Below, one piece after another: positions 32,684 through 36,923 of a stretch of DNA of 64,000 nt. The notes beneath the pieces are model-generated. The model was not told the origin of the DNA, did no database searches, and was given only the letters and a program-made list of their open reading frames with translations. Position numbers and translations under genes: made by a program. Origin of the DNA: Lacticaseibacillus parakribbianus (lineage in GTDB: Bacteria; Bacillota; Bacilli; Lactobacillales; Lactobacillaceae). Each line of letters begins with the position of its first letter. Position 1 is the first letter of the stretch. The stretch spans positions 186,001 to 250,000 of the forward strand of contig NZ_JANQBA010000001.1 in assembly GCF_025490915.1 (NCBI RefSeq). The letters run 5' to 3'.

Positions 32684-33283
32684 TCAATCCCCAGCGGGCA
32701 GTCCCGCGGTGTGTTCCAGCCACGCCCAAACAGCATCCTTACCTTCACCAGTTTCGGCGGAAAACAGCACCAGCTGGTCGGTTTGGTTCAGGTCAAGCGT
32801 TGCTTCAATCTGGTGAATCGTCTGGGCTCGCCGGGCCCGACTGGTTTTGTCCACCTTAGTGCCAACCACCAGCACCGGCTGGTTGAAGTACTTGAGGTAC
32901 TGGTACATGCTGACATCGTCTTCGCTTGGCACGTGCCGCGCATCGACCAGCAGCACCGCACCGCGCAACGGCTTGCGCGTGGTCAGGTACTCCTCGATCA
33001 TCGCCGCAAACTTCGCCCGGGCGGCCTTGGAGACCTTGGCGTAGCCGTAGCCCGGCACATCGACGAAGTACAGCTGCGACTCGATGTCGTAGAAGTTCAG
33101 GGTCTGGGTCTTACCCGGCACACTGGAAGTTCGCGCCATCGCCTTGCGGTCGATCAGGCGGTTGATCAGGCTGGACTTGCCGACGTTGCTGCGGCCGACG
33201 AAGGTGATCTCCGGGTAGCCGGTGGCCGGGTACTGGGTCTTGCTGGCGGCGCTGATGGTTAATTCCACATGGTTCACTTTCAC
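32684..33283 (-). CDS. ysxC: Ribosome biogenesis GTPase YsxC/EngB
   Basis: 199-residue essential GTPase that assists 50S subunit assembly. All G motifs are seen: G1 GRSNVGKSSL (about residues 31-40), the G2 region ending in T, G3 DVPGYGYAKV (about 75-84), G4 GTKVDK and G5-like FSAETGEG. The start is GTG 33283, ten bases after AAGGAGGG. It follows clpX as in many Firmicutes, but a clear terminator lies between them, so read-through or its own promoter must supply transcription. Confidence 0.95.
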   Translation of the reverse strand: MKVNHVELTISAASKTQYPATGYPEITFVGRSNVGKSSLINRLIDRKAMARTSSVPGKTQTLNFYDIESQLYFVDVPGYGYAKVSKAARAKFAAMIEEYLTTRKPLRGAVLLVDARHVPSEDDVSMYQYLKYFNQPVLVVGTKVDKTSRARRAQTIHQIEATLDLNQTDQLVLFSAETGEGKDAVWAWLEHTAGLPAGD

Positions 33284-33402: not shown

Positions 33403-34659
33403 CTAAGACGCCTTGCGCCCGTTTTCGAGCTTCATCTCCGGGACCCCGGTGCCGTCGACGGCGGCCTTGGTGACCACCGCCTTCTTGACTTCCGGCCGGC
33501 TCGGCAGGTCGAACATCAGATCCTGCATCACGGCTTCGATGATTGAGCGCAGGCCACGCGCCCCGGTGTCGCGCTCGATCGCCTTGTGGGCAATCGCGTG
33601 CAACGCGGCCGGCGTGAACTCAAGCGCCGTGTCATCCAGGCTCAAGAGCTTTTGGTACTGCTTGACCAAGGCGTTCTTCGGCTCGGTCAAAATCCGCACC
33701 AGGTCATCTTCGGTCAGCTTCTCCAGCGCGGCGATGATCGGAATGCGGCCGATGAATTCCGGGATGATCCCGAACTTCATCAGGTCTTCCGGCACAATCT
33801 GCTGCATCACGGACTTGCTTTCGTCGTAGCCCTTGGCCTCGTCGGAGTTGGCGCCAAAGCCGATGGTTTTTTCGCCCATCCGGTTCTTGACGATCTGCTC
33901 GATGCCGTCGAACGCCCCACCGACGATGAACAAAATGTTCGTCGTGTCGATCTGGATGAACTCCTGTTGCGGGTGCTTGCGGCCGCCCTGCGGTGGCACG
34001 TTGGCGATGGTGCCTTCAAGAATCTTCAAAAGCGCCTGTTGCACGCCTTCGCCCGACACATCGCGGGTGATCGAGACGTTCTCGGACTTCTTGGCAATCT
34101 TATCGATTTCGTCGATGTAGATGATGCCCTTTTCGGCCCGCTCCACGTCGTAATCCGCGTTTTGCAGCAGCTTCAGCAGGATGTTTTCGACGTCTTCACC
34201 AACGTAACCGGCCTCGGTTAAGGTCGTCGCATCGGCGATGGCGAACGGCACGTTCAAAATCCGGGCCAAGCTTTGCGCCAGGAAGGTCTTCCCGGAACCG
34301 GTCGGGCCGATCAGCGCGATGTTGGACTTTTGCAGCTCCGTGTCGCCTTCCTCGGCCACTTCCATCTGGTTGACGCGCTTGTAGTGGTTGTACACCGCCA
34401 CGGCTAAGGCGCGCTTCGCGGCGTCTTGCCCGATGACGTAATCGTTCAAAATCTTCAGGATTTCGGCCGGCTTTGGCACTTCCAGCTGGCCCTGAACGGC
34501 ATCTTCTTTGAATTCCTCATCGATGATCTCTTTGCACAGGTCGATACATTCATTACAAATATATACACCAGGGCCAGCAACGATCTTTTTCACCTGGTCT
34601 TGTGACTTGCCGCAAAACGAGCAGGTCACCGGGCCGGTGGTCTCAACGTTGTCAAACAT
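33403..34659 (-). CDS. clpX: ATP-dependent protease ATPase subunit ClpX
   Basis: 418-residue AAA+ unfoldase that feeds ClpP. The N-terminal zinc-binding domain shows CSFCGKSQ and CNECIDLC (four cysteines, about residues 10-41). Walker A is [12 protein letters not shown] (about 117), the pore-loop neighbourhood is [14 protein letters not shown], Walker B is [11 protein letters not shown], and sensor 2 is [10 protein letters not shown]. The length is typical. ATG 34659 is eight bases after AAAGGGG. The usual partner tig lies upstream, separated here by a small ORF and a ~400-nt RNA gene. Confidence 0.98.
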
Positions 34660-34887: not shown

Positions 34888-35019
34888 ATGACAATGCTCT
34901 TGATCGGCGCCGTGAGCGTCCTTGGCCTGCTGGCCGCCATGACCGTTATCGCAGGTGGTGCCACCAGGCGCCGCCAACCCGTTTTGATTCCAATCGAGCG
35001 CCGTTCCCCGCGCCGCTGA
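34888..35019 (+). CDS. Small single-pass membrane protein (43 aa)
   Basis: 43 residues: MTMLLIGAVSVLGLLAAM leads a single hydrophobic segment (about residues 3-23), followed by a basic, Arg-rich cytoplasmic tail (TRRRQPVLIPIERRSPRR). GGAAAGGATGAG lies seven bases before the ATG and a perfect terminator begins 12 bases after the stop, supporting a real gene. The family is not recognised. The small size and amphiphilic pattern are compatible with a membrane-associated regulator or a toxin-like peptide, but nothing in the sequence decides this. Confidence 0.6.
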   Translation: MTMLLIGAVSVLGLLAAMTVIAGGATRRRQPVLIPIERRSPRR

Positions 35020-35030
35020 CGCACCGCCTT

Positions 35031-35063
35031 GGCCGACCCGGCTCACCACCGGGTCGGTTTTTT
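35031..35063 (+). terminator. Terminator of the 43-aa gene
   Basis: CGACCCGG, loop CTCACCA, CCGGGTCGG, then six T. Confidence 0.9.
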
Positions 35064-35073
35064 GTGCTGAACG

Positions 35074-35482
35074 TCAAAAACCGCCACAACAACGCGTGTT
35101 GTGGCGGCCGCGCCGAAGCCAGCGGCGCGGATTTCGCCGCCGGCCTAGGCCCTTCGTGCTGATTCGTTGCGCCGGTCGAAGACTGCCGGCGGTTTGCGGC
35201 CCGTCTTCGGCCGTCTGGAACAAGCCACGCGCCGAGCCCCTCCGCAGCTACCTCGCATGCGAGTAGGAGAGCCAGTGACACTGCGCGTGGGTGGTGGTCC
35301 AACCCTGGTATTCGGGCCCGCAGGTGGGCGCCGTTACGCGAAAACACGTGTGTTGAAAGCCAGATTCGGCTTGGTATGAGCGGGGTACTGGGAATGCTTA
35401 TCTCCCGGACCGTTCCCCATGGGCAGTGGACGTATCAGCGACCAAGGCCTTTGGCCGCCTCCCTGTCCTAGAATAATCATCC
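35074..35482 (-). ncRNA. Large structured noncoding RNA, copy 2 (~407 nt, unassigned family)
   Basis: Minus-strand unit between the 43-aa gene terminator and tig. The promoter is TTGACG (35512-35517), 17 bases, TACACT (35489-35494), with a start near 35482. The terminator stem of 10 bp plus TTTTT is at 35076-35107. It shares with copy 1 (10605-11004) the same length, promoter form, ordered conserved blocks and an identical 18-nt block before the terminator; the regions between blocks differ in sequence but can form hairpins in the same places. No open frame with an RBS is conserved between copies. It separates clpX from tig, which are adjacent in many relatives. No known RNA class recognised. 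Confidence 0.82.
35076..35107 (-). terminator. Terminator of ncRNA copy 2
   Basis: Minus strand CCGCCACAAC, a 7-base loop, GTTGTGGCGG and TTTTT. Confidence 0.9.
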
Positions 35483-35488
35483 AAGGCC

Positions 35489-35517
35489 AGTGTAAGCCCT
35501 GCCATCGTGGTCGTCAA
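35489..35517 (-). promoter_or_regulatory. Promoter of ncRNA copy 2
   Basis: Minus strand TTGACG, exactly 17 bases, TACACT, the same design as copy 1. Confidence 0.85.
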
Positions 35518-35568
35518 TTTTTACGCTCACCCTGGCAGGGCTTTCACCGCCTCGGTCGCAACGCCACG

Positions 35569-35603: not shown

Positions 35604-36923
35604 TTAGTCTTCTTTGGCAGCCTTGTCTTCCTTGGCGGCTTCGACTTCCTTGGCGCTGTCGGTGATAATCTTGATGGCCTTCTTGACCCCGATGTCGTGC
35701 TTCAGCATGTCATCGGACAAGGCGCGGCGAACGGCCTTTTCGTCCATGTTGTACTCTTCGGCCAGGTCCTTGATCTCGGCGTTGACTTCGTCTTCGCTGG
35801 CGTCAAGCTTCTCCGCTGCGACGATGGCCTCAAGCACCAGGTTGGTCTTGACGCGCGTCTCGGCGTTGGCGGCGAACTGCTTCTTCAGGTCGTCTTCGGA
35901 GGTGCCGGTCAGCTGGAAGTACATCTTCGGGTCGATACCCTGCTGCTGCATGTTGCCCATGTACTGATCGTACTGGTTCTGGGTTTCGGTGTCGAGCATC
36001 GCTTGTGGCACTTCTTCGATGGTCGCGTTGTCAACCGCCTTGGCGATGGCCTGCTCCTGAATCGCGTCCTCGGCGGCCTCGACCTTCTTTTGCTGCAGGT
36101 CGGACTTGATCTTCAGCTTGAGTTCGGCCAGCGTGTCGACGTCTTCGTCAAGGTCCTTGGCAAAATCATCGTCAAGCGCAGGCAGTTCCTTGCTCTTGAC
36201 TTCGTGAATCGTGGTCTTGAATTCGGCTTCCTTGCCGGCAAGGTCTTTGGCTTGGTAGTCTTCAGGGAAGGTGACCTTGACGATCACATCTTCGCCGGCC
36301 TTGTGACCGATCAGTTGGTCTTCAAAGCCCGGAATGAAGGAGTTGGAGCCCAGCTCAAGCGCGTAGTTCTTGGCGGAGCCGCCGTCGAACTCGGTGCCGT
36401 CGACGGTGCCGACGTAATCGATGGTCACGGTGTCGCCCTTTTCAGCGGCCGCGTCTTCCTTGAGCACAAGCTCTGCTTGGCCCTCACGCTTGGCCTCGAG
36501 GTCCTTGTCAACGTCGGCATCGGCCACGTCGCGGTCCTGCTTGTCGACGGTCACGCCCTTGTAGTCGCCCAGCTTAACATCAGGCTTGACGGTGACTTCG
36601 GCGGTGATCACCCAAGGCTTGCCTTCGTCCATGGATTCGATGTCGATCTTTGGCTGGTCGACTGGGTCGATCCCGGCTTCCTCAATGGCAGCTTCGTAGC
36701 TGTCCGGCAGCAAGATGTTCAGCGCGTCTTCGTAAAGCGCGGATTCGCCGTACATGCGGTCGAACACGGTGCGAGACACGTGACCCTTGCGGAAGCCCGG
36801 TACGTTCAGGTTCTTCTTGACGCGGGTGAACGCCTTGTCCAATCCTTCTTTAATTTGGTCTTGTTCGATTTCAAAGGTCAAAACACCGGTAACGGTGCCT
36901 TTCTTTTCCCATTTTGCAGCCAT
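35604..36923 (-). CDS. tig: Trigger factor
   Basis: 439-residue ribosome-associated chaperone and peptidyl-prolyl isomerase. The N-terminal ribosome-binding domain has the exit-tunnel signature near residues 40-50 ([11 protein letters not shown], the GFRxGxxP-type loop with His-Val instead of the usual Lys-x-Pro). The PPIase FKBP-like domain follows (about 150-245; [20 protein letters not shown]), then the C-terminal helical arms, and a Lys/Glu/Ala-rich tail. ATG 36923 is eight bases after GGAGG. It has its own promoter and terminator. The unusual spacer containing ncRNA copy 2 sits directly downstream. Confidence 0.97.

Follow-up and report, generated by a model that had tools for sequence, protein, structure and literature searches.

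What is the sequence that separates the trigger factor gene (tig) from clpX at this locus, and how might it have come to lie there? The initial annotation described it as the second copy of a structured RNA, inserted between two genes that often neighbour each other. On the evidence of its sequence, copy 2 belongs to a new family of structured RNA genes that occurs in many copies, each with its own predicted promoter. The observation behind the initial annotation is confirmed in part, and its interpretation is likewise supported only in part.

Features of the locus

We analysed a window of 64,000 nucleotides (G000:C1:186001-250000; G+C content of 62%) from the 2.82-Mb genome of Lacticaseibacillus parakribbianus (G000), which is assembled in 32 contigs. 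The promoter and terminator hairpin previously annotated for copy 2 are both present on the minus strand, with coordinates that were read directly. A 17-nt spacer separates the two promoter boxes upstream of the predicted RNA start, and the terminal hairpin runs into TTTTT (Table 1). The covariance model matched copy 2 at G000:C1:221295-221482 with 187.5 bits, a score given to a sequence that was also among those used to build the model. A 133-aa open reading frame overlapping copy 2 (34946-35347) passes through the terminator and was set aside by eye. We also noted a 43-aa reading frame on the plus strand between copy 2 and clpX (34888-35019, MTMLLIGAVSVLGLLAAMTVIAGG...), which resembles a gene for a small membrane peptide; the sister species (G006) has, by eye, an apparent relative in the corresponding position.

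Table 1. Coordinates of the two RNA copies, their predicted elements and neighbouring genes in the window
Feature	Position	Strand	Evidence or remark
Predicted structured RNA gene, copy 2 (subfamily A)	35482-35076	minus	~407 nt, from predicted start (~35482) to end of T-run
GTGAGC, within conserved GAGC + A-rich box, ~45 nt 5' of start	35525-35530	minus	69-copy consensus
-35 box TTGACG	35512-35517	minus	TTGAC in 65/69 copies, TTGACG in 59/69
-10 box TACACT	35489-35494	minus	TANNNT in 69/69 copies, TACACT in 25/69
Predicted helices P1 + P1a	35421-35468	minus	Two-sided changes in 5/8 and 5/6 pairs
Predicted helices P2 + P2a	35382-35418	minus	Two-sided changes on A1: P2a 4/6, P2 none; P2 3/4 on model-fitted A3
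Predicted domain P3-P5, with conserved ACCAGGG	35302-35381	minus	Alignments and covariation
Predicted helices P6-P8, including conserved CCUACUCGC...GCGAGGUAGCUGCGG	35225-35290	minus	Two-sided changes: P6 4/9, P7 7/9 pairs
Hypervariable hairpin region, copy-specific	35150-35224	minus	Mean folding z -1.49; copy 2 z -0.75
Conserved 3' hairpin, end = GGCUUCGGC	35113-35149	minus	Two-sided changes in 6/16 pairs
Predicted intrinsic terminator, hairpin + T5	35076-35109	minus	TTTTT at 35080-35076; 8/10 stem pairs changed on both sides, 81.7% of cells paired
tig (trigger factor), upstream of copy 2	35604-36923	minus	TIGR00115, 441.8 bits
clpX, downstream of copy 2	33403-34659	minus	NF003745, 666.7 bits
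ysxC	32684-33283	minus	Neighbour gene
Copy 1 (subfamily beta), 398 nt	~11004-10607	minus	Covariance model match G000:C1:196808-197004
Copy 1 promoter	TTGACG 11039-11034; TAAGCT 11016-11011	minus	Spacer of 17 nt

The window also holds copy 1, which had been reported to share an identical 18-nt sequence with copy 2. The window contains two exact instances of this sequence, GGCTTCGGCGCGGCCGCC, both on the minus strand (35120-35103 and 10649-10632); 0.06 matches within two mismatches would be expected, and two such matches were found in none of 100 shuffles. The promoters, described as the same, proved to be alike and not identical: the -10 hexamers differ, and TTGACG-N16-18-TACACT has a single occurrence in the window. 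Furthermore, the tree places copies 1 and 2 in different clades (subfamilies). What had been read as free drift of the middle of the RNA has two sources, divergence from one subfamily to another and a single hypervariable hairpin region. Conservation within subfamilies is highest over the first 180 nt, and the variable part covers ~75 nt near the 3' end.

Copy number and distribution

To call copy 2 a second copy understates the family, which has ~59 copies in the genome. A BLASTN search of the genome with copy 2 returned 43 places. R1, a covariance model trained on 37 copies and limited to the 5' half, gave 52 matches in G000, and two models that included sister-species copies (R2 and R3) gave 58 each, which indicates that the count had converged. 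One further copy (L046) is cut by a contig end and brings the number to ~59, although this may be an undercount because the assembly breaks at some copies.

Among 30 genomes of the genus, the family is found only in G000 and in the sister species G006, where R2 and R3 identified 14 copies. The other 28 genomes gave no match (R2 at E 0.1 and R3 at 0.01, with 83 and 87 candidates scored per genome). The trigger factor nearest to the one in the window is that of G006 (95% identical), and the genomes with the next-nearest trigger factors (89% and 88%) had no RNA match. Wider scans were positive in 2 of 100 relatives (R1), 2 of 397 Lactobacillaceae (R2), 1 of 395 Lactobacillales (R3) and 1 of 398 Bacillota (R2), every positive being G000 or G006. 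The last three scans took the six best first-look candidates per genome through strict filters, so weak relatives could escape them.

BLASTN searches of phages gave no match to copy 2, copy 1 or a type F copy, and searches of plasmids gave none to copy 1 or the type F copy. The one plasmid match to copy 2, a short Nocardia stretch (E 8e-4) covering 12% of the query at 82%, was taken as chance. When viral contigs were scanned with an exact pattern of the P8 motif, six stretches came up; the rest of the RNA was absent from them by eye, and they were taken as look-alikes.

Promoters, terminators and genomic placement

Promoters were readable in 69 of 72 copies, the exceptions being L018 and L214, whose 5' ends are broken, and L045, which lacks sequence upstream. 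The -10 box is TANNNT in all 69 and the -35 box is TTGAC in 65, the remaining four, all of type F, having TTGCC. Mean agreement with the consensus was 97% for the -35 hexamer, 79% for the -10 hexamer and 63% for the spacer. Upstream lies a box with the consensus gagC..aaaa, in which conservation is 60-90% for g, a and g and at least 90% for C. A terminator-like site was present in 56 of the 72 copies, whereas 16 did not pass our strict criterion, which required the stem to end no more than 4 nt from at least four Ts. RNA length ranges from ~400 to ~630 nt across subfamilies; type E (two copies) reaches ~530 nt and type F (four copies) ~630 nt, both measured to the 3' motif and T-run. In the type F promoters (L231-L234), the spacer contains the palindrome CAGGTAAYCGCTTACCTG, possibly an operator, and partial palindromes were seen by eye in other subfamilies.

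No copy out of 72 overlapped a called gene, with a tolerance of 60-80 nt and our own simple codon-usage caller, which places gene starts only approximately. In 54 of 70 copies, the RNA and the gene upstream of it share one direction. Convergent gaps hold 23 copies and divergent gaps 7; in co-directional gaps, 31 copies run along with the genes and 9 are opposed to them. Only two of the 72 copies are plainly broken: L018, apparently by an insertion sequence, and L214, by a deletion read by eye. L018, at the start of C2, and L041, at the end of C4, appear to be a single RNA copy, counted among the 58 matches, split by that insertion sequence, with the ends GTAAGCACCC.../...GGGTGCTTAC and the 8 bases GATTATTC on either side. 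Another stretch beside RNA copies, of 1008 nt (L217:15-1021 and L024:3117-4123), is 97.7% identical between the two species. This exceeds the 71-94% of long window matches, and the stretch is perhaps an insertion sequence as well.

Dispersed intergenic copies, mostly behind genes, are also what one would see if the family were a passive repeat of the REP, BIME or MITE-like kind, with promoter-like and terminator-like sequences and no functional RNA. We consider such an origin very improbable. The -35 and -10 boxes are kept while the spacer between them varies, and the copies carry no signal of target duplication. The compensatory changes over the full length and the strand-specific use of G-U pairs, both described below, also argue against it.

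Secondary structure

The family is almost certainly one of genuine structured RNA genes. In a structure-blind MAFFT alignment of 37 copies (A1), 94.1% of the cells of a 44-pair core were paired and 20 of the 44 pairs had two-sided changes. The corresponding means in 500 shuffles were 85.8% and 13.0 pairs, and neither observed value was reached in any of the 500. Sliding the partners by 1-3 columns lowered pairing to 38-51%. In an alignment fitted to the model (A3; 63 distinct rows from both species), two-sided changes were found at 36 of the 44 pairs, against a shuffled mean of 24.8. At full length, 34 copies had 92.1% of cells paired and 47 of 99 pairs changed on both sides (shuffled means of 83.0% and 28.9; reached in 0 of 500), the 3' half of this structure having been derived from the same 34-copy alignment on which it was scored. 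G-U cells outnumbered A-C cells (371 versus 89 in A5; 231 versus 86 in A4), which assigns the fold to the strand analysed here, the one that the promoter would transcribe.

Support from single subfamilies is weaker. Of the model pairs, RNAalifold run separately on each of three subfamily groups without the model found 66%, 66% and 47%, with a precision of 53%, 56% and 45%. In the MAFFT alignments of these groups, 89.7%, 89.4% and 78.8% of the model cells were paired, with two-sided changes at 5 of 36, 11 of 44 and 8 of 42 model pairs. Thus, comparison across subfamilies supports the fold best, and the long types support it least. The conserved blocks are nonetheless better than chance would give. 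Although three points of the reasoning first offered for a structured RNA were inaccurate, the proposal itself, with more than one copy, is supported by the covariation and by a promoter layout kept in all 69 readable copies.

The predicted RNA begins at its 5' end with a small terminal hairpin, followed by P1 with P1a and P2 with P2a. In the middle, a 4-bp helix closes a domain with P3a, P4, P5 and ACCAGGG, and P6-P8 come next. P8 is almost invariant in the full-length alignment and thus speaks neither for nor against pairing. The 3' part is composed of the hypervariable region, a strong hairpin and the terminator. Open reading frames of at least 30 codons in 34 copies gave no shared frame: the commonest start was present in only 12 of the 34, and the commonest stop (23 of 34) sits in the conserved GGUAGCUGCGG. 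We also rejected a leaderless small peptide starting from an AUG near +3, which had no common frame; AUGAU also fits the 5' terminal hairpin.

The hypervariable region folds more stably than its dinucleotide shuffles, with z below -1 in 20 of 31 copies (mean in Table 1), and strong, unrelated hairpins are readable in it in several copies. This combination of strong divergence among copies and retained folding is consistent with a set of diversified trans-acting regulatory RNAs, in which a common scaffold would present a copy-specific hairpin that pairs with different targets. An own promoter in each readable copy and a terminator-like site in most copies would suit such independently expressed regulators. 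In many copies, however, most of the variable part is already paired and fits poorly as a base-pairing seed, and we judge this role unlikely.

The tig-clpX gap in related genomes

In G000, 944 nt separate tig from clpX. The gap was compared across 30 genomes of the genus, with clpX lying outside the compared stretch in 8 of them. Among the 22 genomes with both genes in the stretch, 17 have a gap of 123-255 nt, and four other species have long gaps (868-1088 nt) without the RNA. Of four named species also inspected, two have gaps of 1088 and 3581 nt and two have no clpX in view.

In G006, clpX lies ~1.4 kb past the end of the tig match, with a small reading frame and an extra gene in between. 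The small frame resembles, by eye, the one at 34888-35019 of the window. The covariance model gave no RNA match in this interval, and this absence from the sister species supports the proposed insertion of copy 2. The site of copy 1 has a similar appearance: between well-aligned flanks, it spans ~528 nt in G000 and ~111 nt in G006, where it contains no RNA. The absence of the family from the 28 other genus genomes speaks for a probable gain here after the family had entered the lineage, with loss in G006 as the alternative.

Sequence identity among copies and probable gene conversion

Sequence identity is distributed unevenly along the copies. We picked 13 subfamily groups by eye, comprising 54 of the 72 copies (window copies 1 and 2 are not among them). 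Mean identity within these groups was 0.93-1.00 over the first 180 nt, 0.61-0.93 in the promoter region and 0.47-0.54 in the upstream flank, the last being the level of unrelated sequence. In a midpoint-rooted FastTree phylogeny of 72 core sequences, computed without support values, the 14 copies of G006 formed three clades with no G000 copy inside.

Five of the 14 G006 copies occupy sites common to both species (L206/L082, L207/L046, L208/L042, L212/L092 and L213/L081). A sixth G006 copy, which is truncated, shares its gap with L036 and points the other way. Identity over the first 180 nt was only 0.64-0.75 at the four shared sites that were compared. For four copies compared over 280 nt, the nearest chosen paralogue of the same species was 0.86-0.95 identical, versus 0.70-0.72 for the shared-site copy. 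The 3' ends of two pairs look common to the site while their bodies are of different types. In L212/L092, the last 60 nt are 0.77 identical versus 0.59-0.62 for paralogues; in L213/L081, nt 280-410 are 0.81 identical versus 0.64 for the core. The terminator of L206/L082 is not clearly site-common (0.64 to the shared-site copy versus 0.70 and 0.55 to paralogues), and locus-specific 3' ends are clear at just two of the five shared sites.

These patterns strongly suggest gene conversion between dispersed copies, which would best account for uniform bodies alongside local promoters, 3' ends and flanks. Separate insertions at the same places are possible for the other three shared sites. The presence of different subfamilies at some shared sites makes the two sister species a natural experiment on how an RNA gene family spreads and is homogenised.

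Tests of mobility

If the copies had been inserted by a transposase-like activity, short target duplications might flank them. In 70 copies, the longest string shared between the two borders averaged 4.41, compared to 4.44 after shuffling, and 179 of 300 shuffles equalled or exceeded the observed value. With the border placed behind the terminator, the values were 5.17 and 5.08, with 72 of 300 shuffles at or above the observed one. These two 3' borders were the ones tried, and both were placed by pattern. Searches of G000 and G006 revealed neither reverse transcriptase (RVT_1) nor Y1 transposase, which the same searches found in 3 and 5 of 14 control genomes, respectively. We rejected a retron, a group II intron or an IS200/605 element on the lack of RVT_1 or Y1 matches in both genomes.

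Similarity beyond the RNA differs between the long types. The four type F copies have a mean identity of 97-99% over the first 400 nt and unrelated flanks with sharp borders: similarity begins at GAGC and ends after GCGTC, an aligned length close to ~630 nt. The two type E copies (L229 and L230) remain alike for ~100 nt beyond the terminator. This common stretch contains ACTTTGCTTTACAAAGTA, perhaps a PadR-type operator, which by eye precedes a PadR-like gene at one copy and an ABC transporter gene at the other.

The sharply bounded type F copies raise the possibility of a selfish element, in which the segment from the GAGC box to the 3' hairpin would be a non-autonomous mobile unit served by an enzyme in trans. 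The structured RNA would then promote its own spread, and the copy between tig and clpX would be a recent insertion. The distribution of the family (58 versus 14 matches in the sisters and none in the 28 other genus genomes) fits this explanation as well or better, and the sister species lacks the RNA at the sites of window copies 1 and 2. However, sharp ends are equally expected from gene conversion between existing copies, and the similarity of the type E copies past their terminator is at odds with a unit bounded in this way. The lack of a target-duplication signal, the absence of RVT_1 and Y1 from both genomes and the scarcity of broken copies weigh against it further. We regard a selfish element as the main rival to the structural role proposed below, possible but somewhat less likely. 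A bolder version appears rather unlikely. It would make the family a new class of RNA-encoded selfish element in bacteria, in which a structured RNA (~400-630 nt), without a protein of the element's own, steers duplication of its gene to fresh intergenic positions and lets it overwrite its sister copies; one genome would have been filled with ~60 copies in this way, in a family found in a single species pair.

A possible structural role

Our best guess, which we hold tentatively, is that the family encodes an abundant trans-acting structural RNA kept at high gene dosage. The RNA, presumably transcribed, would work in trans, comparable to ROOL or OLE, as a stable and plentiful scaffold, sponge or RNA assembly. 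Its output may be raised by gene number, as in rRNA operons, a suggestion prompted by the copy number. New copies could arise through rare DNA duplications into gaps behind genes, where they would do little harm, and the tig-clpX copy may be one of them. Copies probably overwrite each other via gene conversion, which would keep the bodies uniform within the subfamilies of a species. If transcribed as its promoters suggest, the RNA could be a major and hitherto unrecognised component of the cell in both species.

Comparison with known systems

A search of the window against Rfam 15 (4227 families) gave no match at the gathering score. With relaxed thresholds, the scores over copy 2 were 17.2 bits on the plus strand (cut-off 42.5) and 12.1 bits on the minus strand (cut-off 45). 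Seven loci of other subfamilies returned only a sub-threshold T-box match and a match to sR44, both outside the RNA. A T-box leader in G006 (L210:3472-3709, minus strand) scored 84.7 bits, just under the gathering score of 93. The covariance models of ROOL, GOLLD, OLE and HEARO are presumably held in Rfam, and none matched here. A literature search, conducted mostly without subscription papers, found no such RNA family. We know of no bacterial genome with ~60 dispersed, separately promoted genes for a large structured RNA besides rRNA and tRNA. Nor, to our knowledge, does any known kind of element that we could name combine RNAs of this size, ~60 separately promoted copies that apparently evolve in concert, and a range of two species.

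Several known systems share some of these features. HEARO, the omega RNA of IscB, and TnpB-associated RNAs are structured RNAs tied to mobile units and sometimes present in many copies. In contrast to HEARO and omega RNA, the present RNA has no Rfam match and carries its own promoter and usually a terminator. REP/BIME, MITE and other intergenic repeats form many dispersed intergenic copies behind genes. Unlike REP/BIME and MITE, however, the RNA described here spans hundreds of nucleotides, with a promoter in each copy, compensatory covariation and no target-duplication signal. As described in two reports, rRNA operons are dispersed multi-copy RNA genes homogenised by gene conversion (PMC6002687, PMC8022953) and number up to 15 (PMC6002687). 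The present RNA is unrelated to them, was found in just two species and reaches ~59 copies.

Closest in kind are ROOL, GOLLD and OLE, which are likewise large, elaborate bacterial RNAs whose function is poorly known. In a strain of Ligilactobacillus salivarius, ROOL is reported to match 16S rRNA in abundance and to be non-essential, and its gene there lies on a megaplasmid. ROOL and GOLLD are otherwise placed in phages and prophages, often close to tRNA islands, in descriptions that name no genome with tens of copies (PMC12286853, PMC5643018). By comparison with ROOL and GOLLD, the RNA described here has no phage match and no Rfam match, and its copies number ~59 in G000 and 14 in G006. The family thus adds a new target to the ornate-RNA problem, the question of what ROOL, GOLLD and OLE do.
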